Of a stretch of 64,000 nucleotides of DNA, positions 9,346-60,498 are shown one piece after another. Within the stretch, counting starts at the first letter, position 1; the number at the start of each line of letters is the position of its first letter. The stretch is from Spartobacteria bacterium (GTDB lineage Bacteria > Verrucomicrobiota > Verrucomicrobiia > Chthoniobacterales > UBA10450): positions 1 through 64,000 of the forward strand of contig PNAA01000036.1 of assembly GCA_003169975.1 (NCBI GenBank), read 5' to 3'. The position numbers and the translations under genes were made by a program. The notes beneath the pieces are model-generated. The model was given only the letters and a program-made list of their open reading frames with translations. It ran no database searches and was not told the DNA's origin.

Positions 9346-12243
9346 TCACGTCAGCCGCCAGCGGATCTCGAAGAGGGTTTTCTGACTGAGGTGCTGGCTG
9401 AGTTTCTTCTCAACCTCGTCGATGAGCGAATCTTTCCGCTTCTCGATGTCGCGGGCGGCTTCTTCGTATTCCTTCCACGCCTCGTCGCGGTTGGTTTCGA
9501 GATTCCGCTTCTCGCGTTCGAGTTTGAGTTTGAGCGGGAGGTTTGGGGCGAGCCGAGCTTCTCGTTTGATGAGCCTGATCGCGTCTTCCATATCCCTCAG
9601 CTTTTCCTTCAAGGTAGCGCGTCGGTCGTCGCCCCATCGGTCGAGCTTGTCCAGCTCCGCATCGAAGAACTCGTTGTTGCGGAGATCGAGGCCAGAAACT
9701 ACGGCATCTTTTTCCTGAGCGATTGCCGCGGACAAGACTTCCGCAAACGATGACGGGAGCGCCGCAGTTATCGGTGCCTCTTCGACTTCAAGGGAGAAGC
9801 AGCGACGGCATTGTTCAGCGGTCAATGCTGCACCGGCGTCGGTGCAGCCGGCGAAGAGAATGTGATCCTGCGACTCAAACGCGGAGATCGTGAGGAGTTC
9901 GCAGGTGAGCCAGCCTTCCTTTCCGGCCAATTCATCGAGAATGGAAATTCGTTTTCCGGCGCCAGTGTAGCGGAAGGTTAGCGTCTTCTGGCTTAGGTGG
10001 ATGTCGCGGCACCGGGCGATGACCTTTTGTGCGAGCGGATGGCCGACGCGGTAAAGGTTCGCTTCCTCGACGCTTTGGCCCGCGCCACCGGAACGATAGG
10101 GACCGGGATGGATGTGCTCTTCGGGAAAGGGATTTTGGCGCAGCACGAAGCCGTGCCGGTCTTCCTCGAAATCCGCGTAGGGTGCAAGGAAGTACCGCGT
10201 GAGCTGCCAGAGCCAGGACTCGTAGCGGTCGAGGTATTCACTGCTTTCCTTGAGACTCACGCGCAGCTTCTCGTGAACCTCTTCGTCGAAATTTTCTAGG
10301 AGCTTCTGCCGAGTTTGGCGCATCCGGTCGTCGATCTGCTCCTCCATGTCATGCTGGAGGGCGTCGAACTCGAATTCGATTTGCTCCTCGGTGCGGCATT
10401 TTTGGTAGATGTCCACGATTCGCTTCTCAAAATCGACGCCAGACTCGATGGCGCCGAGCACTTCGTCGCTCGCGCCAAAGACTCCGCTGAAGAGTTTGAA
10501 CTTTTGATCGAGGAGTTGATAGACCCGCTGATCAGCGGCGTTCTTTTTGTTGAGGAAGTTGACCACGACCACATCGTATTTCTGCCCATAGCGGTGACAG
10601 CGCCCGATTCGCTGCTCAATGCGCTGTGGATTCCAAGGGAGATCGTAGTTCACGACAAGCGAGCAGAATTGGAGATTGATGCCTTCGGCAGCTGCTTCCG
10701 TTGCGATCATGATGACGGCTTCATCGCGGAAGTAATCGACCAAAGCGGCTCGTTTGTCGGCGCTGGGTGATCCGCTTACACGGTCGGTGCCGGCGTGCTT
10801 CGCGAGCCACTGTTCAAAGATGGCCTTTGATTGCGGGTCGGTGTTGGTGCCGTTGAAGAGCACGAGCTTTCCAGCGAATGCGGTTTCTTCAAGAATTTCG
10901 CGCAGATACTCCTGTGTGCGCCGACTCTCGGTAAAGATAATGGCTTTCTCGCCGCTCCCGCGCTTCCGCGCCTCGTCGAATCCACGCTTCAGCGCGGTCA
11001 GAAGCACTTCGCCTTTGGAATTCTTGACAATGGATTTGGCGAGCACGCTGAATTCCTTGAGCGTCTCAACCTCCTGTTTCATCTCGCCGATTTCTTCTGC
11101 AGTGCGGACCGTTGAGGACGCAGCGTCGCCAGCTGCGCTGTCGCCTTCATCGTCTTCTTTCCACTCGTCCTCTACTTCTTCGAGCGCTTCGAAATCTGAG
11201 ACCACTTCATCGGGCGGCGCTTGCACGGCCTCCGCCTGCTGGGCCGACTCTGCGAGCCGGGAAGAAAGTCCCTGTAGCGTACTCGAAATGGCGTAGGTGG
11301 AGGAGGCGAGCAGCTTGCGCAGGATCAGCGTCATCAGCTTCCGTTGGCTCGAAGGCAGGGCATACAGATTCGGGCGTTGGAGATAGTCTGAAACGAGGTC
11401 GTAAAGCCGCTGCTCTGCCTCGGACGGGAAGAACTCCTGAGTGATCGGAATGCGATTCGTGTATTTGACGTATTCCAGCACCTGTCGGCGAAGCGTTCGC
11501 TGGCAGACCGGGCGCAGCCGTTCCTTGAGATCAACGAATTGCTCATCGCCCGTCAGGCGGGAGAATTGCGCTTTGAAGCTCTTAAGATCGCCGAAGGCGT
11601 ATTCGTCGATGATGCTGACAAGGCCGAAGAGTTCGAGCAGCGAGTTTTGCAGCGGCGTGGCGGTGAGGAGCACCTTAGGTGCGTGGGCAATCGCGGCTTT
11701 GATCGCATTCGCAATTTTGTTCGTCGGCTTATAGACGTTCCGCAGCCGATGCGCCTCATCGACGATTACAAGATCCCAGGCGATCTGCGCAACATAGGCC
11801 TCTTTGCCGCGAGCGAATTGGTAGGAACATATTACGATCTCAGGCTGGGAGAACGGGTTGAGATTGCGCCCCTTGATTGCCTCGTTGAAGGAGCGCGCTT
11901 CGAGGATAATCGACGGTAGGAAGAATTTGTCAGACAGCTCCTGACTCCATTGCTTGCGCAGGTTCGCGGGCACGATGACGAGAAGTTTTCGCCGACGTTC
12001 TGCCCATTTTTGCGAGAGCAGAATCCCGGCTTCGATCGTTTTGCCCAAGCCGACCTCATCCGCGAGCAGTGCGCCTTTAGACAGGGGTGAACGGAAGGCG
12101 AAGAGTGCCGCATCGATCTGATGAGGATTCAGGTCAACCTGCGCATTGGCTAATGAAGCGGCCAACTTTCCGACACTATCGGACGGACAGCGCTTCGTTA
12201 GTTCATGTGCGAAGTATTTCGCATGGTAGGCGGTAATCGGCAT
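9346..12243 (-). CDS. SNF2-type DEAD/DEAH helicase, first gene of the type III operon
   Basis: 965-residue superfamily 2 helicase of the SNF2/RapA type. It contains ALLADEVGLGKTIEAG (motif I, about residues 58-73), LLVIVPANLRKQW (Ia), DLVIVDEAHRLRN (II), LLTATPLQNS (III), and the C-terminal lobe with EGINLQFCSLVVNYDLPW and RIEQRIGRCHRYGQ (VI). A long C-terminal Glu/Arg-rich coiled coil follows. It leads the minus-strand operon and ends 7 bp before the AAA ATPase gene. SNF2 helicases occur in DISARM and other defence loci, but DrmA, DrmB and DrmC are absent here. The likely role is a DNA-translocating sensor for the type III complex, which is inference. Confidence 0.88.
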   Translation of the reverse strand: MPITAYHAKYFAHELTKRCPSDSVGKLAASLANAQVDLNPHQIDAALFAFRSPLSKGALLADEVGLGKTIEAGILLSQKWAERRRKLLVIVPANLRKQWSQELSDKFFLPSIILEARSFNEAIKGRNLNPFSQPEIVICSYQFARGKEAYVAQIAWDLVIVDEAHRLRNVYKPTNKIANAIKAAIAHAPKVLLTATPLQNSLLELFGLVSIIDEYAFGDLKSFKAQFSRLTGDEQFVDLKERLRPVCQRTLRRQVLEYVKYTNRIPITQEFFPSEAEQRLYDLVSDYLQRPNLYALPSSQRKLMTLILRKLLASSTYAISSTLQGLSSRLAESAQQAEAVQAPPDEVVSDFEALEEVEDEWKEDDEGDSAAGDAASSTVRTAEEIGEMKQEVETLKEFSVLAKSIVKNSKGEVLLTALKRGFDEARKRGSGEKAIIFTESRRTQEYLREILEETAFAGKLVLFNGTNTDPQSKAIFEQWLAKHAGTDRVSGSPSADKRAALVDYFRDEAVIMIATEAAAEGINLQFCSLVVNYDLPWNPQRIEQRIGRCHRYGQKYDVVVVNFLNKKNAADQRVYQLLDQKFKLFSGVFGASDEVLGAIESGVDFEKRIVDIYQKCRTEEQIEFEFDALQHDMEEQIDDRMRQTRQKLLENFDEEVHEKLRVSLKESSEYLDRYESWLWQLTRYFLAPYADFEEDRHGFVLRQNPFPEEHIHPGPYRSGGAGQSVEEANLYRVGHPLAQKVIARCRDIHLSQKTLTFRYTGAGKRISILDELAGKEGWLTCELLTISAFESQDHILFAGCTDAGAALTAEQCRRCFSLEVEEAPITAALPSSFAEVLSAAIAQEKDAVVSGLDLRNNEFFDAELDKLDRWGDDRRATLKEKLRDMEDAIRLIKREARLAPNLPLKLKLEREKRNLETNRDEAWKEYEEAARDIEKRKDSLIDEVEKKLSQHLSQKTLFEIRWRLT

Positions 12244-48729: not shown

Positions 48730-49737
48730 TTCGTCTATGTCGCACGTTCCCGCAGGCTCCATTCAAGCTTTTCAGCGTTTCAGTCCGCCTAAGGCGGATC
48801 AGTTTCATCTCCTTTTCGCTCTCACTCCGCCCTCAACATCCCTTCCACGTAAGTCACGGCATCGCCGCCGATCCCCACCCGTTCACCTCGATCCTCACAG
48901 AACAACTCTCCGCCCCGCGCCGATATCTGGCGCGCCCGCAGGAAGCGCTTGTTCAGGCGCTTCGACCAATAGGGAATCAGTGCGCAATGCGTCGAGCCCG
49001 TCACCGGATCCTCCGGGATGCCAGCCGCCGGCGCGAAATAACGGGAAACAAAATCGCACGCATTCCCCGGAGCCGTGACCACCACACCCTGCACATCGAG
49101 GCGCGCCACCGCATCGAAATCCGGCCGGATCGCAGCCACCTCCTCCTCCCGCTCAAACACCGCCACGTAATCACGCCCGCCCAGCACCGTTCCCGGTCTC
49201 GCGCCCAGCGCATCCGTCAACTCCTTCGGCGGCGCGTTCATCGCCGCACCTGGCAGCACCGGGAAATCCAGCTCCAGCCGTTCACCCTTGCGCGCCACCG
49301 TCAGGTCACCGCTCTTCGATCGAAACCGCACCTGGGATTCCGTGTGGCCGAGATGACGGAAGATCACATGCGCCGCCGCCAGCGTAGCGTGTCCACACAA
49401 GTCCACCTCCAACTTCGGCGTCATCCAGCGCAGATCGAAATGCGACTCACGCCGAATGATGAAAGCGGTCTCCGGCAGATCATTTTCCGCCGCGATACGC
49501 TGTAGAGATTCATCGAGCAACCAACGATCCTCCAGCAGACAAACCCCCGCCGGATTTCCCGCGAACAAATGATCCGTGAACGCCACCACCACAAAAAAGG
49601 GAATGCTCATATCAAACCATCGCGCAGCTTCTGCGTCCGTTCATCCTTCTTAGTTTTTCCCGTGCTTCGTCCATGTCGCACGGTTCCCACCGGCTCCATT
49701 CAGCGTTTTAGCGTTTCAGTCCGCCGAAGCGGATCAG
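48730..49737. repeat. Direct repeats of about 73 bp flanking phzF
   Basis: 48730-48802 and 49665-49737 share the same order of blocks: ttcgtc, atgtcgcacg, ggctccattca, gcgtttcagtccgcc and gcggatcag, with a few substitutions and small gaps. The left copy contains a perfect palindrome tccgcctaaggcgga. The repeats bracket the phzF gene exactly, so this 0.9-kb unit may have been gained, or could be lost, by recombination between them. Confidence 0.65.
48822..49610 (-). CDS. PhzF-family isomerase
   Basis: 262 residues of the PhzF/diaminopimelate-epimerase-like fold: VVVAFTDHLFAGNPAGVCLL at the N-terminus, the catalytic Glu in ENDLPETAFI, LCGHATLAAAHVIF and AGIPEDPVTGSTHCALIPYW. PhzF isomerises a phenazine precursor, but no phenazine genes are here; most such orphans act on unknown small molecules. 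It is bracketed by direct repeats and faces away from the hsdR operon. Confidence 0.9.
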   Translation of the reverse strand: MSIPFFVVVAFTDHLFAGNPAGVCLLEDRWLLDESLQRIAAENDLPETAFIIRRESHFDLRWMTPKLEVDLCGHATLAAAHVIFRHLGHTESQVRFRSKSGDLTVARKGERLELDFPVLPGAAMNAPPKELTDALGARPGTVLGGRDYVAVFEREEEVAAIRPDFDAVARLDVQGVVVTAPGNACDFVSRYFAPAAGIPEDPVTGSTHCALIPYWSKRLNKRFLRARQISARGGELFCEDRGERVGIGGDAVTYVEGMLRAE

Positions 49738-49811
49738 CATTCGGAAGCCCGGCCCCGCCAGGCTGCTTTTCCCTCGACTTCATTTCCAAACCCGCTAGAA
49801 CTGCGCCCGGA

Positions 49812-52598
49812 ATGCCGACCCCGGAGGAACGAGCCCGCCAAATCATCGACGCGCTCCTCGTGCAGTGCGGTTGGGTGATCCAAAACTATCGCCAACTGGA
49901 CCTCTCCGCGTCTCGCGGTATCGCAATCCGCGAAGTCCGGCTAAAAGAGGGCCGCTGCGACTACCTTCTGCTGATTGATCGCAAACCAGTCGGCATCATC
50001 GAAGCCAAAAAGGCCGGTGTGACGCTCTCTACCGTCACCGATCAATCCGGCCGATACGCCGAGAACCTTCCCGACTTCCTTCGCGGCGATTTAGTCGGCA
50101 AGCTCCCATTCTTGTACGAATCTACGGGCATCGAGACCTTCTTCCGCGATGAACGCGATCCACATCCACGCTCGCGCCGTGTCTTCGCCTTTCATCGGCC
50201 GGAAACACTCGCAACGTGGCTCGAAGAGCCCGACACCCTTCGCCATCGCCTCGCCCAGATGCCATTCGCCCATCCCTATAATGGCGAAAACGTCCGCGTC
50301 TGCCGCGTCGAAGCCATCACTGGCCTGGAGAAATCCTTTGCTGAGGCCCAACCGCGCGCCCTCATCCAGATGGCCACCGGCGCCGGCAAGACCCTCACCG
50401 CCTGCGCCTTCACCTATCGCCTCATCAAGCATGCCGGCGCGCGCAACGTTCTCTTCCTCGTCGACCGCGCCAATCTCGGCCGCCAGGCGCTCGCCGAGTT
50501 CCATCAATTCGTCACCCCGGACACCGGCCGCAAGTTCACCGAGCTCTACAACGTCCAGCACCTCACCTCGAACCGGCTCGACCCGGTCGCGCGCGTCACC
50601 ATCTGCACCATCCAGCGCCTTTACGCCATGCTCCGCGGCGAAGAGTTGGATGAAGACATCGACGAAAAATCCGGCTTTGAAATAGCTGCGGCGGATCAAA
50701 GAAAACGCGACGTCCAATACAACCCCGCCATCCCGATCGAGACATTCGACTTCATCATCGCCGACGAATGCCATCGCTCCATCTACAACCTCTGGCGCCA
50801 GGTCCTCGAATACTTCGACGCCTTCCTCATCGGCCTCACCGCCACGCCCGGCAAGCAAGCCATCGGCTTTTTTAATCAGAACCTCGTCAGCGAATATCCG
50901 CACGAGCGCGCCGTCGCTGATGGCGTCAATGTCGGTTACGACGTTTACCGCATCAAAACGCAGGTCACCGAGCAGGGCGGCCAGATCGAGAAAGGCCTCT
51001 ACGTCGATCGCCGCGAAAAAAAGACCCGCCGTCTCCGTTGGGAACAACTCGACGACGACCTCACCTTTTCCGCGAAAGAGCTCGATCGCTCCGTCGTCGT
51101 GAAAAGTCAGATCCGCACCGTTCTGCAAGCCTTCCGCGACGCGCTCCCGCAGCTTTTCCCCGGCCGCTCGTTAGTCCCGAAGACCCTCATCTTCTGCAAG
51201 GACGACTCCCACGCCGAGGACGTCGTCCACATTTGCCGCGAAGTCTTCGGCAAGGGCAACGACTTCTGTAAAAAGATCACCTACCAATCAAAGCATCCCG
51301 AGACCGGCAAGCCGGCGCATGGCGAGCAACTCATCCAGGAGTTCCGGCTATCGCCCCAGCTCCGCATCGCCGTCACCGTCGACATGATCGCCACCGGCAC
51401 CGATGTGAAACCGCTCGAGTGCCTCGTCTTTCTGCGCGACGTGCGCAGCCGCGTCTACTTCGAGCAAATGAAAGGGCGCGGCACCCGCGTCCTTTCGCCC
51501 ACCGATCTGCAAGCCGTCTCCGGCGCGGAAGCGCGAGCCAAGACCCACTTCGTCATCGTCGATGCCGTCGGCGTCTGCGAGAGCGACAAGACCGATTCGC
51601 GTCCGCTCGATCGCAAGCCCACCGAGAAACTCGAAAGCATCCTTCTCGGCGTCGCGCTCGGGAAACGCGACGACGATACCCTCACGACCCTGGCTTCGCG
51701 ACTCGCGCGAATGGAGCAATCGCTCGACGCCGAAGAGAAATTCCGCATCACTGCCGCGACCGGCGGCAAGACTCTCTCCGAGATGGCGAGCGAACTCCTG
51801 CAATCCGTCGATCCCGATAAGATCGCCGAGAAGGCTGCTGGAAAGCCAGGAGTTGAACCGCAGGAAGTTGATCCTGAGGAGTTCGCCAAGGCGCGCGCAG
51901 CTCTCATCGCCGAAGCCTGCTCACCTTTCGACAAACCGGAAGTGCGCGACACACTCGTCCGCGTGAAGAAAGAGAGCGAACAAACGATCGACGTCACCAC
52001 CATCGACGCAGTCATCGAGAGCGGCTTCGACGCCGCCGCGAAAGACAAAGCCGAAGAAACCGTTCGCTCGTTTCGCGACTATCTCACACAGCACAAGAGC
52101 GAGATCGACGCCCTGCAGATTCTCTACTCGCGACCGTTTAAACAACGCCTAACGGAGTCAATGCTCAAGGAATTGGAAAAGAAGCTCCGCGAAAACCACG
52201 CCGGCTGGACTGAGGACCGCCTGTGGGACGCGTTTGCCGCGACTGCACCCACGAAGGTAAAAGGCCGATCGCAGGCCGGCCGTTTCGCTGACCTCGTCGC
52301 CCTCGTTCGTTTCGCGCTCGAACAACAACCCGTACTCGCTCCATTTTCTGATTCCGTGTCCGAGCGGTTTAATGAATGGCTAATGGATAAAGCAAAGGCC
52401 GGCGTGACGTTCAACGCCGAACAACTCGCGTGGCTTCACCTGATCTGCGAGCACATCGCCACGGCGATTAGCATCGAACCTGATGATTTGGATCTCTCAC
52501 CTTTCAATCAACGCGGCGGCTTGGGCAAAGCGCATCAACTTTTCGGTGTGCAACTCCCCAAGCTGCTTGATGAACTTAACGAAGCACTCGCGGCGTGA
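49812..52598 (+). CDS. hsdR: Type I restriction enzyme, HsdR subunit
   Basis: 928 residues from the ATG at 49812; the open frame runs back to 49569 but covers repeat DNA. The N-terminal nuclease has CDYLLLIDRKPVGIIEAKK (D...E-x-K). Helicase motifs follow: IQMATGAGKTLTACAF (I), FIIADECHRSIYN (II), LIGLTATPG (III), DMIATGTDVKPLECLVFLRD (V) and QMKGRGTRV (VI). The C-terminal helical region binds the HsdM/HsdS complex. It is the first gene of the composite type I operon. A CGTTAGGC word lies at 52147. Confidence 0.95.
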   Translation: MPTPEERARQIIDALLVQCGWVIQNYRQLDLSASRGIAIREVRLKEGRCDYLLLIDRKPVGIIEAKKAGVTLSTVTDQSGRYAENLPDFLRGDLVGKLPFLYESTGIETFFRDERDPHPRSRRVFAFHRPETLATWLEEPDTLRHRLAQMPFAHPYNGENVRVCRVEAITGLEKSFAEAQPRALIQMATGAGKTLTACAFTYRLIKHAGARNVLFLVDRANLGRQALAEFHQFVTPDTGRKFTELYNVQHLTSNRLDPVARVTICTIQRLYAMLRGEELDEDIDEKSGFEIAAADQRKRDVQYNPAIPIETFDFIIADECHRSIYNLWRQVLEYFDAFLIGLTATPGKQAIGFFNQNLVSEYPHERAVADGVNVGYDVYRIKTQVTEQGGQIEKGLYVDRREKKTRRLRWEQLDDDLTFSAKELDRSVVVKSQIRTVLQAFRDALPQLFPGRSLVPKTLIFCKDDSHAEDVVHICREVFGKGNDFCKKITYQSKHPETGKPAHGEQLIQEFRLSPQLRIAVTVDMIATGTDVKPLECLVFLRDVRSRVYFEQMKGRGTRVLSPTDLQAVSGAEARAKTHFVIVDAVGVCESDKTDSRPLDRKPTEKLESILLGVALGKRDDDTLTTLASRLARMEQSLDAEEKFRITAATGGKTLSEMASELLQSVDPDKIAEKAAGKPGVEPQEVDPEEFAKARAALIAEACSPFDKPEVRDTLVRVKKESEQTIDVTTIDAVIESGFDAAAKDKAEETVRSFRDYLTQHKSEIDALQILYSRPFKQRLTESMLKELEKKLRENHAGWTEDRLWDAFAATAPTKVKGRSQAGRFADLVALVRFALEQQPVLAPFSDSVSERFNEWLMDKAKAGVTFNAEQLAWLHLICEHIATAISIEPDDLDLSPFNQRGGLGKAHQLFGVQLPKLLDELNEALAA

Positions 52599-52607
52599 AA
52601 GGAACCT

Positions 52608-53828
52608 GTGATTAACGAAAAGACATTGGAGCTTAATCTCACCTTTGAAATATTGACCGTTGCAGACCAACTCTGGAGTTTGATCCAATTTGCCACATCG
52701 GCACCGCGAGTAATGCACGCGTGTCATTGTTTCCGCCCATATCGCCTTCCACCGCATCAACGTCCCCCATATGCCTTAGGCCTTACCCTCAACGACGAAA
52801 AGCGGCAGGGATGGGATGTTAAGATTCAACTACCCAGCGGCCCCGGCCGGCCGACACACGCCCTGTTCCTTCAGTTTAAGCAAGGAGAACACAAAGCTTA
52901 CTCAACTCACAAGCTCAGCGCATTTCGGGGATCGGTAAAATCGGCAAAGCCGTTTTGCGAATTTGAATTCAATAACAATTCCGATGGCACACAGCATATC
53001 GTGCTGCGTGGCCTTGCCGCCCAGCCTTCGCTTCAAGGGTCAGTCTCCTACGTCTTTCCGCGAATTCCCAACGCGCAAACATTCAAAGCGTGTTTGGGAC
53101 GCTTAATCCACGTAACGACTTCGCATACAGTCAGCGAGATCGATGCACAGGCGACAGCCAAAGGAATCATAATTTCCGCGGGCCAGTCCCACAAATTTAG
53201 GACTTCCTACACTAGTCCTTTCGTAACCGAATTATGTTCGGATCCTAAAGCCGTCGAACTTGATGGCGGTGAGGAAGGCGATCTGTTTTCGGACATTGTT
53301 AGTATCAGGGTTCATCGTGCCCTCACCGAGTGGCAAGAGATGCTTCGGGAGGCCTGGCACACAGTCGACTTCGAGCAGGTCAACTGGTCCGAACTGTTTC
53401 GGACCTTCCAAGTAGAATTGGGCCGCTATCTGGCGGTCGAGCCGCGCTTCTTCGCTGATATAACGGGCGACGAACTCCCCGGAGAGGACATCGAGGCGCT
53501 TGGCACCTCGTATCGCGAATTCTCACAGTTCGAAGAACAGCTGCGTGAGCATATCGAATTTAGTGCGCGCAATGACAACGAGCGCGAACAACTATTTCCT
53601 GAAAGGCGCAGGAACTCGCTGATGTCGCTCGTTGTAAAGAAAACAGCCCACTATAAGCATCTTCTTGCATCGCCTGAATGGCTGACGACCCCGATTCCGC
53701 AGCCCGAAACGACCTTCGCCATTCCGGTTGGCAATGAAATGGATTTGCGCCTTGAAACACTTGGAGGCGAATTATCGCAGGATGCTTTCGTACGATCGCT
53801 CAGCAGCCTTAGCTTTCAGGCCATATAG
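52608..53828 (+). CDS. Unknown accessory protein between hsdR and hsdS
   Basis: 406 residues, GTG start preceded by aaaggaacc. The N-terminal third contains GWDVKIQLPSG and THALFLQFKQGEHKAY, a D...Q-x-K arrangement that could be a divergent PD-(D/E)XK nuclease core. The rest is mixed alpha/beta (SVSYVFPRIPNAQTFKACLG) with a helical C-terminus and ends RSLSSLSFQAI. I cannot name a family. It starts 9 bp after hsdR and ends 2 bp before hsdS, so it belongs to the operon. A nuclease effector role is a hypothesis. Confidence 0.65.
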   Translation: MINEKTLELNLTFEILTVADQLWSLIQFATSAPRVMHACHCFRPYRLPPHQRPPYALGLTLNDEKRQGWDVKIQLPSGPGRPTHALFLQFKQGEHKAYSTHKLSAFRGSVKSAKPFCEFEFNNNSDGTQHIVLRGLAAQPSLQGSVSYVFPRIPNAQTFKACLGRLIHVTTSHTVSEIDAQATAKGIIISAGQSHKFRTSYTSPFVTELCSDPKAVELDGGEEGDLFSDIVSIRVHRALTEWQEMLREAWHTVDFEQVNWSELFRTFQVELGRYLAVEPRFFADITGDELPGEDIEALGTSYREFSQFEEQLREHIEFSARNDNEREQLFPERRRNSLMSLVVKKTAHYKHLLASPEWLTTPIPQPETTFAIPVGNEMDLRLETLGGELSQDAFVRSLSSLSFQAI

Positions 53829-53830
53829 CT

Positions 53831-55222
53831 TTGAATGCAGATCTGGATAAGTCTCTCAATGGCGAACAGCGACCCATGTTTCGCATTGGTGATTCATTGA
53901 AATTAATCAACGGCCGCGCATTCAAGCCTACTGAATGGAAGAAATCAGGGAGGCCGATTGTCCGAATTCAAAACCTCAATAACCCAGATGCTTCGTTCAA
54001 TTATTTCGATGGCGATCTTCCTGAAAAATTTCTGCTCGATCACGGAGACTTGCTCTTCGCTTGGTCAGGCACGCCAGGGACTTCGTTTGGCGCTCACATC
54101 TGGCGCGGCGGCAAGGCTTGGCTAAACCAGCATATTTTCAAAGTTCAGTTCGACGAGACACAGTTCGACAAAAAGTTCCTGCAGCTCGCGATTAATCAGA
54201 ACCTGTCGGAATACATCCGCGCTGCCCACGGAGGAGCTGGGCTTGCGCATATCACTAAGGGCCGATTCGAAGAATCTGAATTACCTCAGCCGAAAATTCC
54301 CGAACAGCGGCGGATTGTGGCGGAGATAGAGAAACAATTCACACGACTGGAAGCTGGAGTAGCGGCGATGCGACGGGCGGAGGCCAACTTCAAGCGCTAC
54401 CGAGCTTCCGTCCTTAAAGCCGCCTGCGAGGGCCGCCTCGTTCCCATGGAAGCCGAACTCGCCAAAGCCGGAAACAGAAAATTTGAAACCGGCGAAGAAC
54501 TCCTTAAGCGCATCCTCACCGAGCGTCGCCAAAACTGGCAGGGCCGCGGAAAATACAAAGAGCCTTCCGCGGCCAAAACGGCTGACTTGCCGCCGCTCCC
54601 ACGGGGCTGGACTTGGACGACTGCACAGCAACTCAATCTTGCCAATCGTCCGTGTGCTTACGGCGTTCTTCAGCCAGGCGAAAATGTTCCTAATGGCGTG
54701 CCGTTTGTCCGCGTCGGGGACATCAACAATGGGACGGTACAGCTGGAGAGCATGAAAAGAATCTCCACGACTATTGCCGCACAATACCCGCGCACGAAAC
54801 TTCATGGTGGCGAACTGGCGATCACACTCGTCGGGGCAATCGGAAGGACAGCAATCATTCCCGAGAGCCTCGCAGGCGGAAACACCGCTCGCGCTGTCGG
54901 CGTCATTCCGCTAACACAGCAAGTCAACGCCCACTGGGTTGAGATTTGGTTTCGCAATCCGGCAAAGAACGCCGAGATGGATTCCAAATCGCATGAAGTC
55001 GCGCGGAAAACTTTAAACTTGGAAGATGTCCGGGTCGCAAGCATTGCGCTGCCACCCGTTGCCGAGCAAACGCGGATCGTGGCGGAAGTGGAGAGGCGGT
55101 TGAGCGTGATCGAGGAATTGGAGGCGGCGGTGATCGCCGATCTGCAGCGCGCCACTCGTCTCCGACAATCGATCCTTCATAGGTCCTTTTCGTCTGAGCC
55201 TCTGAATGCCAATCGCGAATGA
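53831..55222 (+). CDS. hsdS: Type I restriction enzyme, HsdS specificity subunit
   Basis: 463 residues from a TTG start 2 bp after the preceding gene; an ATG at 53876 is an alternative. Two target-recognition domains alternate with conserved helical spacers: TRD1 (about 15-155), spacer IPEQRRIVAEIEKQFTRLEA, TRD2 (about 255-410), spacer VAEQTRIVAEVERRLSVIEE. The two spacers repeat the IVAE(I/V)E pattern expected of HsdS. Each half reads one part of a bipartite site. It overlaps the reverse transcriptase gene by 4 bp. Confidence 0.93.
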   Translation: MNADLDKSLNGEQRPMFRIGDSLKLINGRAFKPTEWKKSGRPIVRIQNLNNPDASFNYFDGDLPEKFLLDHGDLLFAWSGTPGTSFGAHIWRGGKAWLNQHIFKVQFDETQFDKKFLQLAINQNLSEYIRAAHGGAGLAHITKGRFEESELPQPKIPEQRRIVAEIEKQFTRLEAGVAAMRRAEANFKRYRASVLKAACEGRLVPMEAELAKAGNRKFETGEELLKRILTERRQNWQGRGKYKEPSAAKTADLPPLPRGWTWTTAQQLNLANRPCAYGVLQPGENVPNGVPFVRVGDINNGTVQLESMKRISTTIAAQYPRTKLHGGELAITLVGAIGRTAIIPESLAGGNTARAVGVIPLTQQVNAHWVEIWFRNPAKNAEMDSKSHEVARKTLNLEDVRVASIALPPVAEQTRIVAEVERRLSVIEELEAAVIADLQRATRLRQSILHRSFSSEPLNANRE

Positions 55223-56910
55223 CTAAGTCTTTGGAGCTCGCGGAGATGATCGGCCGGGGCTTTTTGCCTCGCGAACTCCCTCCGCCCTTCAATTCGCTAG
55301 CGTACGGAGCCTACATCAAGTCACTCGGCGGCGCTCGGCTGCCATTCGATACGACAACGAGAGGCTTCAAGACGTCTGTTCCGGAGATCTATAATTTGGC
55401 TAGAGCCGGCAGCTTCAGAAGAGAGCTATCTATTTTGAACCCCATTCACTTTGCCGCACTGGCAGATTGTATCGCGGCTCAATGGACCCAAATTGCAAAA
55501 CTCACGGAATCGAGACTTTCTCTTACGTCGCCAACTGTGAGCGCGGAAGGGAGGGCAATCACGCGGCGAACGTCCTTAGATCTGCTTCCAAGATTGCGTG
55601 CGGAAACGCGTAGCCAAGGCCGGTATCTACTGAAAGCCGATGTAAATCGGTTCTATCCGTCGATCTACACCCACAGCATTCCGTGGGCTGCCCATGGAAA
55701 AGCCTTCGCGAAGGCGAACCGAGGCTCGGAGCACTGGGGCAATAGAGTGGATCTGCTAATGCGGAACTGCCAAGACGCGCAGACAAATGGGATTCCCGTT
55801 GGGCCAGATACCTCACTGGTGCTTGCTGAGCTTCTACTTACGCGCGTTGATCGTAAGTTGACTCGCCGCCGGATCAAAGGTTTGCGCTACATGGACGATT
55901 ACGAACTTGTTTTCGATTCCGAAAAACAAGCATTGGAAGCGCGTACGCAGCTCCAGCAAGCCTTACTGGAGTTCGAACTCAACCTAAGCACCACAAAAAC
56001 GGGTGTTTATCCCTTACCGCAACAACTCGAAGAGCCTTGGGTATCCTCGCTAAATTTATTCCAACTTTCTGAATCGGATCAATATTTTGAAACCCAAGTA
56101 GTGCGGTTCTTCGACCGCGCCTTCGAGCTAGCGCGAGACTTTCCACAAGAAGGCGTTTTGAAATATGCGGCGGGTCGCATAGCGAAACTTCGCGTGGCCG
56201 GCGAGCGAGCAGAGCTGCTAGAAAATCTGTTGATGCAGTGTGCGCAAGTGGAGGCGGGATCCCTCGCGTTCGTCTTGGCCTCGATGCTAAAGCATCCGCC
56301 TGCTACGACACAGAGGCGAAATCGGAGACACGCGATGCTGCTGCGGATCATCGCCACGCATGCGCCGCAACGTCACTCCAGTGAAGTCGCTTGGGCCGTC
56401 TGGGCGTGTATCGCAATGAAACTGCAGCTCAATCGCAGTGCCACAAGGGCAGTGCTCGACATGGAAGATTCAGTCTGCGCTCTTCTCGCTCTTCATGCTC
56501 GAAGGCTCGGATTGGTCGAAAGGCCGAGTGACCTAAACCCGTTGCGCAGCGGGATGACAGCGGAGGCGCTATATGGACCTAGGTGGCTCCTTGCGTACGA
56601 AGCAAATTTCAAAGGGTGGTTCCAATTTCGCGGTGCGAACGACTTTGTGGCTAGGGATCGCAATTTTCGGCGTCTCAAAAACGCGAAGGTAAGTTTCTAT
56701 GACGCGTCGAAAACAACACTGCCCGAGCCGCCATCGCCGATCGCCCGTACTAGTAAGGTCATCGACGATTACCTCTCTCGGATCACTTCCGATTATGAAG
56801 ACGCAGATGGAGACGAGGATGAAGACGAAGAGGGCGTTTCCGCCGAAGACATAGCCGAGAGGCTGCGCGAACTTGACCGAGCCAAGAAACCGGGGCCGCT
56901 CGGAATTTGA
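55219..56910 (+). CDS. Reverse transcriptase of the unknown-group/Abi-like type
   Basis: 563 residues. RT motifs: YLLKADVNRFYPSIYTHSIP (about 136-155, first catalytic Asp141), GIPVGPDTSLVLAELLLTRV (191-210) and RYMDDYELVF (223-232, catalytic Asp226/227). The catalytic triad is intact. After about residue 300 the protein is a helical repeat-like domain with no maturase, nuclease or protease motif, and ends in an acidic DADGDEDEDEEG stretch. This build resembles UG/DRT defence RTs and Abi proteins rather than group II introns or retrons. It overlaps hsdS by ATGA, so it is made as part of the restriction operon. The exact UG class is not assigned. Confidence 0.88.
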   Translation: MTKSLELAEMIGRGFLPRELPPPFNSLAYGAYIKSLGGARLPFDTTTRGFKTSVPEIYNLARAGSFRRELSILNPIHFAALADCIAAQWTQIAKLTESRLSLTSPTVSAEGRAITRRTSLDLLPRLRAETRSQGRYLLKADVNRFYPSIYTHSIPWAAHGKAFAKANRGSEHWGNRVDLLMRNCQDAQTNGIPVGPDTSLVLAELLLTRVDRKLTRRRIKGLRYMDDYELVFDSEKQALEARTQLQQALLEFELNLSTTKTGVYPLPQQLEEPWVSSLNLFQLSESDQYFETQVVRFFDRAFELARDFPQEGVLKYAAGRIAKLRVAGERAELLENLLMQCAQVEAGSLAFVLASMLKHPPATTQRRNRRHAMLLRIIATHAPQRHSSEVAWAVWACIAMKLQLNRSATRAVLDMEDSVCALLALHARRLGLVERPSDLNPLRSGMTAEALYGPRWLLAYEANFKGWFQFRGANDFVARDRNFRRLKNAKVSFYDASKTTLPEPPSPIARTSKVIDDYLSRITSDYEDADGDEDEDEEGVSAEDIAERLRELDRAKKPGPLGI

Positions 56911-56913
56911 ATC

Positions 56914-57039
56914 GTGAGTTCCCAGCATCTACTCCAAGAGCTCTGTAATTATTCCAAGATTCTCTCAGATCAGCGGCTTACCTTCGCATTTGCGTCTCGT
57001 GTTAGCATTTCATCAGCGTGCACGGGTGACAACTTATGA
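56914..57039 (+). CDS. 41-codon small ORF bridging RT and DUF5131 genes
   Basis: A GTG 3 bp after the RT stop opens a frame that ends in TGA at 57037-57039, overlapping the next ATG (57036) as ATGA. The peptide begins SSQHLLQELCNYSKILSDQR. Full use of the gap with coupling at both ends suggests it is translated. Its start resembles the N-terminus of the HsdM in this operon (LVQKLWNYCNILRDDGLSY), so it could be a relic of an earlier hsdM. Not long enough for a firm call. Confidence 0.4.
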   Translation: MSSQHLLQELCNYSKILSDQRLTFAFASRVSISSACTGDNL

Positions 57040-57845
57040 GTGACAATTCCAAAATCGAATGGACAGATGCAACGTGGAACCCGATTCGTGGGTGCACAAA
57101 GATTAGCGCAGGCTGCACACACTGTTACGCGGAGACGTTTGCCGAACGGTTTCGCGGCGTTCTTGGCCATCCCTTCGAGTTTGGGTTCGATCTGAGGCTC
57201 GTACCCGAAAAGCTGGGCGACCCGATCCGCTGGTCCAAGCCCAAGAAGATTTTTGTGAACTCGATGAGTGACCTCTTCCACGAAGACGTGTCGGACGAAT
57301 ATATTGAGAAAATCTGCCGGGTAATGTTAGCGGCGAACTGGCATACTTACCAGATTCTAACTAAAAGAGCCGACCGCATGGCCGGGTTACTACGCGGAAA
57401 GCTGCGTAGAGCGGCCAAGGCGCCACACATCTGGTGGGGCGTGAGTGTGGAGAATCGCAAGCATGGTTTACCGCGTATTGCCGAACTGCGAAACGCCAAG
57501 CCGGCGGTCGCTTTTCTCTCGGTGGAACCTCTGCTTGAAGACCTCGGAAAATTCGACCTGAGCAGCGTACATTGGGTGATCGTTGGCGGCGAGAGCGGGC
57601 CGGGGGCGCGCCCCATGGAGGCCGAGTGGGTGCGGGATATTCGTGATCAGTGTCGCAAAGCGGATGTCCCATTCTTCTTCAAGCAGTGGGGCGGAATCCG
57701 TAAGAAAGAAACTGGACGTCGCCTCGATGGCAAGACGTATGACCAATATCCCGATCTCGCCGAGGCGGTGGCCTTGAAGGGCGATGCGAGAGCGTTACTC
57801 CTTCGGAAAGTAGAGACAGAATTCCGCGTAAAAGCCACGCGATGA
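57036..57845 (+). CDS. DUF5131 (phage Gp37/Gp68) three-Cys-motif protein
   Basis: 269 residues. The N-terminal block IEWTDATWNPIRGCTKISAG continues into CTHCYAE, giving Cys20, Cys27 and Cys30 (C-x6-C-x2-C), the defining three-Cys motif. VGGESGPGARPMEAEWVRDI and FFFKQWGG are also family hallmarks. The fold is thought to be radical-SAM-like, but the reaction is unknown. It is followed, with a 4-bp overlap, by its usual partner TcmP. Here the pair is embedded in a type I restriction operon. Confidence 0.9.
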   Translation: MSDNSKIEWTDATWNPIRGCTKISAGCTHCYAETFAERFRGVLGHPFEFGFDLRLVPEKLGDPIRWSKPKKIFVNSMSDLFHEDVSDEYIEKICRVMLAANWHTYQILTKRADRMAGLLRGKLRRAAKAPHIWWGVSVENRKHGLPRIAELRNAKPAVAFLSVEPLLEDLGKFDLSSVHWVIVGGESGPGARPMEAEWVRDIRDQCRKADVPFFFKQWGGIRKKETGRRLDGKTYDQYPDLAEAVALKGDARALLLRKVETEFRVKATR

Positions 57846-59005
57846 GCAACGATGAACTTTATACCGGACGTGAACAGACCTTAGTCAAACACTTCATTCT
57901 TCAAAAATATCTAGAGCGCTTTGCTTATATCGTCGGTTCACATTGCGATGTCCTGACATACGTCGACTGTTTCTCCGGCCCGTGGAATGCACGCTCAGAG
58001 AAATTTGAGGATAGTTCTTTTGCGATCGCTTTAAAGGAGCTGCGCAACGCGAGGGACGCATTGGCCCAACAGCGAGGAAGACGCGTTCAACTGCGTTGTT
58101 TCTTTCTTGAAAAGGACCGCGCTGCCTATGCCAAGCTGAAGGAATTTACGGACGGCGTATCGGACGCTCAGATCGAAACGAGAAACTCCACGCTTGAGGA
58201 ATCCGTTCCCAATATTAGCGATTTCGTGCGACGCGGAGGTTCAAACGCCTTCTCTTTTGTCTTTATCGATCCAAAGGGTTGGACGGGATTTGAGATGGAA
58301 ACGATCACTCCGTTACTGCGTCTTAATCCAGGCGAAGTACTGATCAATTTTATGACCGGTCACATCCGACGCTTTCTTGACTCCCCTCAAGAGGAAACGC
58401 AGGACAGTTTTAAGCGGTTGTTTGGTTCCAGTTCATTCAGGGCGAAGGTACAAGGACTTGAGCAACTCGAAAGGGAAGATGCCGCTGTGGAGGAATACGC
58501 TCGTAATGCCAAAGCGATCGGCGGTTTCAACTTCGGCAGCAGCGCCATTGTTCTGCATCCAGAGATTGATCGAACCCACTTCAATCTGATTTACTTAACG
58601 CGGAATCTTAAAGGCATCGAGGTTTTTAAGGATGCTGAGAAGAAGGCGATGGCCGTGCAGGAATCCGCGAGGGCGGATGCACAACAGCGCAAACGCGTCG
58701 CACGGCAGGGACAATCCGAACTGTTCGACAGCCAAGAACTTCATGATTCCACACATTACGAATCCCTACGAAACCGCTATTCGGCAAAGGCGCGTGGTTT
58801 GGTTTTGCGGGCGTTGGAATCGAAGCGCCGGGTTTCTTACGACGAGGCGTGGATCCTTGCACTCTCGGGACCATTATCTTGGGACGGAGATCTAAAGCAA
58901 TGGATCGAAGAGTGGAAGGCAAGCGGCCACCTTGAGATCGCTGGCATGCAGCCTCGCCAACGAGTGCCGCATCGTGGCGAGGAGAACTACCTAATCTGGA
59001 AATGA
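57842..59005 (+). CDS. tcmP: Three-Cys-motif partner protein TcmP
   Basis: 387 residues matching the TcmP family: TLVKHFILQKYLERFAYIVG, then LTYVDCFSGPWNA and a DPKGWTGFEMETI block (FVFIDPKGW) that look like a SAM-dependent methyltransferase fold. The C-terminal part is a helical/winged region (YDEAWILALSGPLSWDGDLK). The family is defined by its linkage to DUF5131 proteins, as here. It overlaps DUF5131 and hsdM by 4 bp each. The substrate is unknown; modification of DNA or RNA is plausible. Confidence 0.9.
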   Translation: MSNDELYTGREQTLVKHFILQKYLERFAYIVGSHCDVLTYVDCFSGPWNARSEKFEDSSFAIALKELRNARDALAQQRGRRVQLRCFFLEKDRAAYAKLKEFTDGVSDAQIETRNSTLEESVPNISDFVRRGGSNAFSFVFIDPKGWTGFEMETITPLLRLNPGEVLINFMTGHIRRFLDSPQEETQDSFKRLFGSSSFRAKVQGLEQLEREDAAVEEYARNAKAIGGFNFGSSAIVLHPEIDRTHFNLIYLTRNLKGIEVFKDAEKKAMAVQESARADAQQRKRVARQGQSELFDSQELHDSTHYESLRNRYSAKARGLVLRALESKRRVSYDEAWILALSGPLSWDGDLKQWIEEWKASGHLEIAGMQPRQRVPHRGEENYLIWK

Positions 59006-60498
59006 GCAACCCTGCCGCCCTCGTCCAAAAGCTCTGGAATTACTGCAACATCTTGCGAGATGACGGCCTGTCCTACGGCGATTACGTCGAGCAGTTGACG
59101 TTCTTGTTATTCCTGAAAATGGCGGACGAGCAGTCGAAGCCGCCCTTCAACAAGCCGTCACCCATCCCGCAAGGTTTTAGTTGGCCCGCGCTTCTAAAGC
59201 TGGATGGCGACGATCTCGAGATTCATTATCGCCATACGCTGGAGGAGCTCGGCAAGCGATCGGGCATGCTCGGCGTCATCTTTCGCAAGGCGCAAAACAA
59301 AATCCAGGACCCTGCCAAGCTGCGCCGGCTCATCGTGGACCTGATAGACAAGGAGCAGTGGTCCAGCCTTTCCGCGGACGTGAAGGGCGACGCCTACGAG
59401 GGGTTGCTGCAAAAGAACGCCGAGGACGTGAAAGGCGGCGCGGGCCAATACTTCACCCCGCGCCCGCTCATCGCCGCGATGGTGGACGCGATCGCTCCGC
59501 AACCAGGTCAGACGATCTGCGATCCCGCCTGCGGCACCGGCGGGTTCCTGCTCGCGGCGCATGATTACATCGCGGAGCATTATCAGCTCGACCGGGCGCA
59601 GAAGAAGAAGCTCAAGAGCGGCACCTTCCTCGGCATCGAGTTGGTGGACAGCGTCACGCGCCTCTGCGCGATGAACCTGCTTTTGCACGGCATCGGGTCG
59701 GAGGCGGACGGTCAGACTTTGGAATCCGGACTCCCGGTAGTGACCAAGGACGCGCTCGCCACGAAGCACGGCGAATACGACATCGTCCTGGCCAATCCGC
59801 CCTTCGGCAAGAAGAGCAGTGTCACCATCGTCAACGAAGCCGGCGAGACCTCCAAAGAATCGCTCATCATTAACCGCGACGATTTCTGGGCGAGCACGAG
59901 CAACAAACAACTCAATTTTCTCCAGCACATCTTCACCATCCTCAAGCAACACGGCCGCGCTGCGGTCGTGTTACCAGACAACGTCCTCTTCGAAGGCGGC
60001 GCGGGCGAAACTATCCGGCGCGCTCTGCTCAAGCAAGCCGATGTCCACACCCTTGTCCGCTTACCCACCGGCATCTTCTACGCGCAAGGAGTGAAGGCCA
60101 ACGTCCTCTTCTTCGACCGTAAACCCGCCCAAGAAAAGCCGTGGACTAGCAAGCTCTGGATCTATGATCTGCGCACCAACCTGCATTTCACGCTACGGGA
60201 AAACACCCTCAAGCGCAGCGACCTTGATGACTTCGTAAGCTGTTACAACCCAAAGAACCGACACGATCGAAAGCCGACTTGGAGCGAGAAAAACGACAAA
60301 GGCCGTTGGAGAGCCTACAAATACGAAGACCTCATCAAGCGCGACAAGATCAACCTCGACATCTTCTGGCTAAAAGACGAAGCCCTCGAAGACAGCGCCA
60401 ACCTCCCCGCCCCCGAAGTCATCGCCGCCGACATCCTCGAAGACCTCCAAGCCGCTCTAGCCCAGTTCGCCGAAATCGCCAATGACCTAAAGAGGTAG
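59002..60498 (+). CDS. hsdM: Type I restriction enzyme, HsdM methyltransferase subunit
   Basis: 498-residue N6-adenine methyltransferase. The N-terminal HsdM domain has WNYCNILRDDGLSYGDYVEQ, followed by GGAGQYFTPRPLIAAMVDAI, the SAM motif CDPACGTGGFLLAAHDYI and the catalytic NPPF in DIVLANPPFGKKS. It lies at the end of the restriction set rather than first, as in most type I operons. Its last 84 bp are repeated at 62422-62500. The next gene starts 1 bp after its stop. Confidence 0.95.
   Translation: MSNPAALVQKLWNYCNILRDDGLSYGDYVEQLTFLLFLKMADEQSKPPFNKPSPIPQGFSWPALLKLDGDDLEIHYRHTLEELGKRSGMLGVIFRKAQNKIQDPAKLRRLIVDLIDKEQWSSLSADVKGDAYEGLLQKNAEDVKGGAGQYFTPRPLIAAMVDAIAPQPGQTICDPACGTGGFLLAAHDYIAEHYQLDRAQKKKLKSGTFLGIELVDSVTRLCAMNLLLHGIGSEADGQTLESGLPVVTKDALATKHGEYDIVLANPPFGKKSSVTIVNEAGETSKESLIINRDDFWASTSNKQLNFLQHIFTILKQHGRAAVVLPDNVLFEGGAGETIRRALLKQADVHTLVRLPTGIFYAQGVKANVLFFDRKPAQEKPWTSKLWIYDLRTNLHFTLRENTLKRSDLDDFVSCYNPKNRHDRKPTWSEKNDKGRWRAYKYEDLIKRDKINLDIFWLKDEALEDSANLPAPEVIAADILEDLQAALAQFAEIANDLKR

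Follow-up and report, generated by a model that had tools for sequence, protein, structure and literature searches.

DRT4 and DRT6 are anti-phage reverse transcriptases (RTs) described in reviews as single-gene systems (PMC13213688, PMC13314766). DRT4 synthesizes random single-stranded DNA (ssDNA) independently of a template, and this product accumulates once its 3' end is shielded by ORF55, a phage protein; ORF55 activates DRT6 too, the product chemistry of which is less resolved (PMC13213688, PMC13314766). Because DRT6 has been reported as a single gene related to DRT4, neither a partner nor a non-coding RNA is expected for it.

Type I restriction (hsd) loci are known to house foreign genes among hsdR, hsdS and hsdM. 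The hsd loci of C. jejuni carry rlo and mlo ORFs, with mlo placed exactly between hsdS and hsdM (PMC5183652). V. cholerae TgvAB is embedded in such a locus and protects independently of HsdR restriction (PMC11411939), and DarTG2 lies between hsdS and hsdR in EPEC E. coli, a position that its authors considered a potential recombination hotspot (PMC12255303). The anticodon nuclease PrrC, by comparison, is invariably hsd-linked and hsd-silenced (PMC3874168). The locus described here has the same arrangement of foreign genes among hsd genes as the C. jejuni, V. cholerae and EPEC examples, whose described cargoes are not RTs. In the literature that we searched, no DRT was described within an hsd operon, although an earlier mention of UG12 with hsd is possible in the main UG/Abi survey or the DRT4 paper, both outside the scope of that search.

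A DRT6 enzyme encoded within a type I restriction operon

The window, by which we mean the whole 64,000-nucleotide stretch analysed, contains an operon with the gene order hsdR, X, hsdS, RT, DUF5131, TcmP and hsdM, all on the + strand:

49569 to 52598, + strand: hsdR, type I restriction subunit (EcoEI_R_C, ResIII, HSDR_N)
52608 to 53828, + strand: X, a 406-aa orphan in the hsdR-hsdS gap, family match absent
53831 to 55222, + strand: hsdS, type I specificity subunit with two Methylase_S stretches
55219 to 55222, + strand: ATGA overlap of 4 nt between the hsdS stop and the RT start (from the sequence)
55219 to 56910, + strand: DRT6 (UG12)-type RT with RT domain, helical C-terminal domain and acidic tail (from profiles and fold)
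55894 to 55899, + strand: RT catalytic Asp-Asp, D226-D227 of RYMDDYE (from the sequence and the relatives' alignment)
57036 to 57845, + strand: DUF5131 protein, PADLOC candidate PDC-M30B/M41B, further cargo
57842 to 59005, + strand: TcmP, three-Cys-motif partner, PDC-M30A-like
59002 to 60498, + strand: hsdM, type I N6-adenine methylase

The RT gene is an intact ORF of 563 aa (55219-56910, + strand) that begins with ATG and encodes an RVT_1 domain at residues 93-264. Its best PADLOC model was Drt6 (PDLC03748, E 6.6e-158), which aligned residues 7-533 with model positions 4-508 of 511 and ranked above Drt4 (5e-150), with UG30, UG14 and AbiK lower. Among the NCBIfam matches, the Drt4 model fell below its cut-off (262 of 450 bits) and no Drt6 model was present. 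The top solved structure by sequence was 9wy8 (E 4e-70). An AlphaFold2 model built from a 32-row alignment reached a mean pLDDT of 88, and 9wy8, the cryo-EM 'hexameric DRT6', was also its top fold match (TM 0.81/0.92; Z 40.4, rmsd 2.0 Å over 485 aligned residues, 32% identity). The next fold matches were DRT4/UG15 (Z 30-33), AbiK (24-25) and Abi-P2 (22). Profile and fold together identify the window RT as DRT6 (UG12), in keeping with the original prediction of a defence-type RT of the UG/Abi class.

With DRT6 the window RT shares sequence family, full-length fold, catalytic residues and the combination of an RT with a helical domain; the differences are an identity of about 32%, an acidic tail whose C-terminal extension is not aromatic and a location in an hsd operon. 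DRT4 (UG15) is alike in fold (Z about 32) and in single-gene logic, but it was rejected as the class of this RT on its lower profile score and a weaker structural match (9vdo, Z 32.7, 24% identity). The abortive-infection RTs AbiK and Abi-P2 have the polymerase fold class in common with the window RT and are distant (Z 22-25, 16-18% identity).

Catalysis would rely on D141 in motif A and on D226-D227 within RYMDDYE, and the YMDD noticed at the outset is confirmed; D141 and D226 were invariant across the aligned DRT6 relatives, and D227 was replaced by E in a single one. The C-terminal part, from about residue 290 to 488, was all-helical in the confident model, which agrees with the Abi-like helical C-terminus proposed earlier. 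The domain search returned no maturase or intron domain in the RT, and no Rfam family matched at E<=1 over 49-61 kb; a retron or group II intron RT was rejected on these grounds, and the predicted lack of intron and retron hallmarks held. A structured RNA in the operon, which the original prediction had proposed to look for, was not found: besides the Rfam result, a 201-nt fold around the RT end was no better than shuffles (z 0.58).

The hsdS gene ends in ...GAATGA and the RT ATG lies at 55219, which bears out the overlap reported between the two genes. Translational coupling of hsdS and RT through this ATGA is possible; ATGA overlaps also join DUF5131 to TcmP and TcmP to hsdM. A promoter scan gave three sites, against 4.8 expected, and thus no excess. 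By eye, comparison with the HsdR start of a related operon (L032; MPIPEDKA) places the true hsdR start probably near 49812 (MPTPEERA...). Profile searches gave no family match for protein X, and a search for its homologues returned none in plasmids and, across 210 genomes of the order, two matches that were both short and marginal; its D...QFK motif suggests a possible Mrr-like nuclease.

Linkage to hsdS is lineage-limited within DRT6

Single-protein scans of genome contigs and viral contigs with the window RT returned no relatives, and an alignment-based scan of genome contigs gave 80 RT loci, most of them in metagenome bins. The nearest relative, from a Nitrospira bin (L032), was 60% and 51% identical in two pieces (55% overall), and the second nearest, from an unclassified MAG (L017), was 51% identical. 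Both have hsdS directly upstream of the RT and hsdM downstream, of the same type I family as in the window, and the junction between hsdS and RT is an ATGA overlap in L032, as in the window, and a zero gap in L017. These three RTs formed one clade with support of 100 on an 83-row RT tree (SH-aLRT only), and 13 residues in the alignment were specific to them. The closest RT clade therefore occupies the slot between hsdS and hsdM in 3/3 cases, with none solo. Searches of genomes from the order (213), the phylum (388), the phylum of Nitrospira (396) and the order of L017 (320) yielded no further RT at slot-clade identity, leaving three known slot members.

Beyond this clade, DRT6 is mostly solo. 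Of the 52 RT loci flanked on each side by 3 kb or more (30 loci have short flanks and can be judged only in part), 49 had no hsd gene, the exceptions being L021, L032 and L088; in L088 the hsd gene is a weak HsdM match 6 kb from the RT. In L021 and L022 (Arsukibacterium), hsdRMS genes of another family, with HsdM about 30% identical, lie upstream, and one membrane-protein-like gene separates them from the RT. Elsewhere, on Agrobacterium and Rhizobium plasmids (L014, 6111-11692; L016), a DRT6 RT follows GajA and GajB, which make up a complete Gabija pair, at a distance of 15 nt, and another lies 24 nt behind an Mrr nuclease in a different Chthoniobacterales genome; both neighbourhoods fit a habit of DRT6 of joining other defence operons. 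The hsdS-RT linkage is thus lineage-limited. The original prediction had asked whether the nearest relatives also neighbour hsdS, and they do; the outcome it named as refuting, closest relatives alone with no restriction genes nearby, did not arise for the nearest clade. The linkage it had called fixed is kept in the nearest clade and absent from nearly all other well-flanked loci.

The gap between hsdS and hsdM is an exchangeable slot

Among 213 genomes of the order, a close HsdM (77-97% identical) was present in 12 other genomes and at a second site in the window genome. In ten fetched operons the gap before hsdM was filled, with different, non-homologous contents each time:

L114 (G000 contig 32, the window genome's second copy, HsdM 97% identical as protein): SocA/Panacea and 142 aa
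L115: PD-Lambda-5_A protein (E 2e-195) and D12 methylase
L116: 315 aa and PIN
L117: OLD-like ATPase
L118: RmrA-like HTH-M78 protein and DUF4411/PIN
L119: Fic
L120: 254 aa
L121: HD and 187 aa
L122: DUF4062
L124: DUF6932 and 306 aa

Both hsdS and hsdM were readable in L115-L120, L122 and L124, and hsdS was off-contig in L114 and L121; L123, in which no hsdS was recognised, was left out of this reading. In all ten operons compared, nucleotide similarity to the window ended within hsdS and returned at about 59000-59029, at the 5' end of hsdM. The gap between hsdR and hsdS also holds cargo: X in the window, TIR and Mrr in L115, and a PemK toxin in L032. The RT is slot cargo, lying as embedded cargo does between hsd genes and being replaced by unrelated genes in related operons. 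In this hsd family, best sampled in Verrucomicrobiota, the space between hsdS and hsdM serves as a defence slot with exchangeable contents, and such slots are a practical place to seek new defence genes.

The RT and the hsd core have separate histories

The window HsdM shared 97% identity with the second copy and 85-90% with several operons that hold other cargo, but only about 80% with that of L017 and 70% with that of L032, the operons that share the RT. The window RT is nearer to L032 than to L017, and the order for HsdM is reversed. On the HsdM tree the RT label needed three changes and a single origin appeared in 0% of bootstraps, although several branches were weak and the tree does not fix the exact history; on the HsdR tree, which held two RT operons, the label needed two changes. 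Two histories fit, movement of the RT from one hsd operon to another or an ancestral RT that has often been replaced, and under either of them cargo and hsd core evolve separately. The three slot RTs form one lineage that has probably been transferred among hsd operons, perhaps through recombination within the conserved genes hsdR, hsdS and hsdM.

The functional partnership that had been read from the hsdS linkage was not supported, given the other cargo in the slot of the closest operons and the scatter of RT operons on both trees. The association with hsdS is genuine and is seen again in two further genomes, but it resembles co-residence more than a demonstrated partnership. Occupation of the slot by the whole clade, with no solo member, is more than neutral housing predicts if the RTs came and went freely, but n=3 and the RT tree is compatible with a single capture.

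A likely second layer of defence and its alternatives

We consider it likely that the hsdS-hsdM slot houses this RT, an anti-phage polymerase of the DRT6 (UG12) type, as cargo, and that it is co-expressed with the hsd genes as a second, abortive layer that works without HsdS. The first layer of the operon would be restriction of unmodified DNA, and the second would be toxic ssDNA made by DRT6 upon infection, aimed at phages that escape cleavage. By analogy with published work on DRT4 and DRT6, the window RT may form a hexamer that makes untemplated ssDNA; a phage DNA-binding protein would protect this ssDNA, which would then be toxic, and infected cells would stop. The enzyme probably acts autonomously, and the genes beside it differ among its closest relatives (window, L017 and L032). 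Such an arrangement would embed in a restriction operon an abortive-infection enzyme that writes DNA.

PrrC is the main counter-precedent, being likewise a toxic defence gene at a type I hsd locus, with silencing by Hsd as its own feature. On that model, the Hsd methylase complex would bind and silence the RT, and phage anti-restriction proteins would release it. The constant slot position of the nearest clade and the conserved hsdS-RT junction keep this option alive, but nothing observed needs it: most DRT6 homologues have no nearby hsd gene, no extra Hsd-binding domain was visible in the RT model, RT operons do not group on either the HsdM or the HsdR tree, and the slot is common to many unrelated genes. 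We therefore regard a PrrC-like partnership as unlikely. A further reading, which we judge improbable, is that a small DRT6 lineage has specialised to type I operons, where it would be held inactive by HsdM-HsdS or fed DNA ends made by HsdR. It would then fire once restriction is blocked or evaded by a phage, in the manner of PrrC but with another weapon. DRT6 in the slot and solo DRT6 offer a clean comparison for whether embedding ever turns into dependence.

The RT might instead be parked in a transcribed region as a passenger that is not, or is no longer, a working defence gene. The Nitrospira copy is broken by an insertion element, another copy in the phylum is a fragment, and the acidic-aromatic C-terminal tip of many relatives is missing from the window RT. 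The window ORF is intact, however, with conserved catalytic residues and a confidently predicted full-length DRT6 fold, which makes a passive role quite improbable. Although all genes share one operon and strand, it is very improbable that the RT belongs with DUF5131 and TcmP (or X) to a multi-gene system, as one of its subunits, and is not a single-gene DRT, since other genes replace DUF5131 and TcmP in L017 and L032 while the RT is kept, a PemK toxin replaces X in L032, and DUF5131/TcmP has a separate match in PADLOC, the candidate system PDC-M30; DUF5131/TcmP was accordingly rejected as an obligatory partner.

Further features of DRT6 loci

RTs of the DRT6 clade often end in an acidic tail whose last three residues include an aromatic one. 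Among 74 complete RTs this was so for 53, compared with 16% of 535 background ORFs, and 29 had an aromatic residue with at least six acidic residues among the last 20, compared with 0.4% of the background. This acidic-aromatic tail (in the L014-L096 RTs) resembles the C-terminal tip of SSB. In the window RT (56770-56907) the acidic stretch is present and the ending differs from the aromatic tip of the relatives. A tail tyrosine, Y526 (56794-56796 of the window), aligned to a near-invariant column in a disordered region, where the aligner may favour such an alignment; it is a candidate priming residue.

The L032 RT is split by an IS3-type element (10696-12021), and that operon also contains HsdR and HsdM fragments; the truncated copy elsewhere in the phylum is 162 aa long. 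In a gammaproteobacterial DRT6 subclade, a membrane-protein-like ORF of about 210-230 aa lies directly upstream of the RT (L021, 9299-11590; L022; L027). A family of 297-301 aa with function unassigned follows the RT in two distant loci (L017, 2573-3466; L046, 9677-10582). Finally, L046 and L047 carry identical RTs with matching flanks in bins labelled Pseudomonas and Sphingopyxis, which points to either recent transfer or a binning error.
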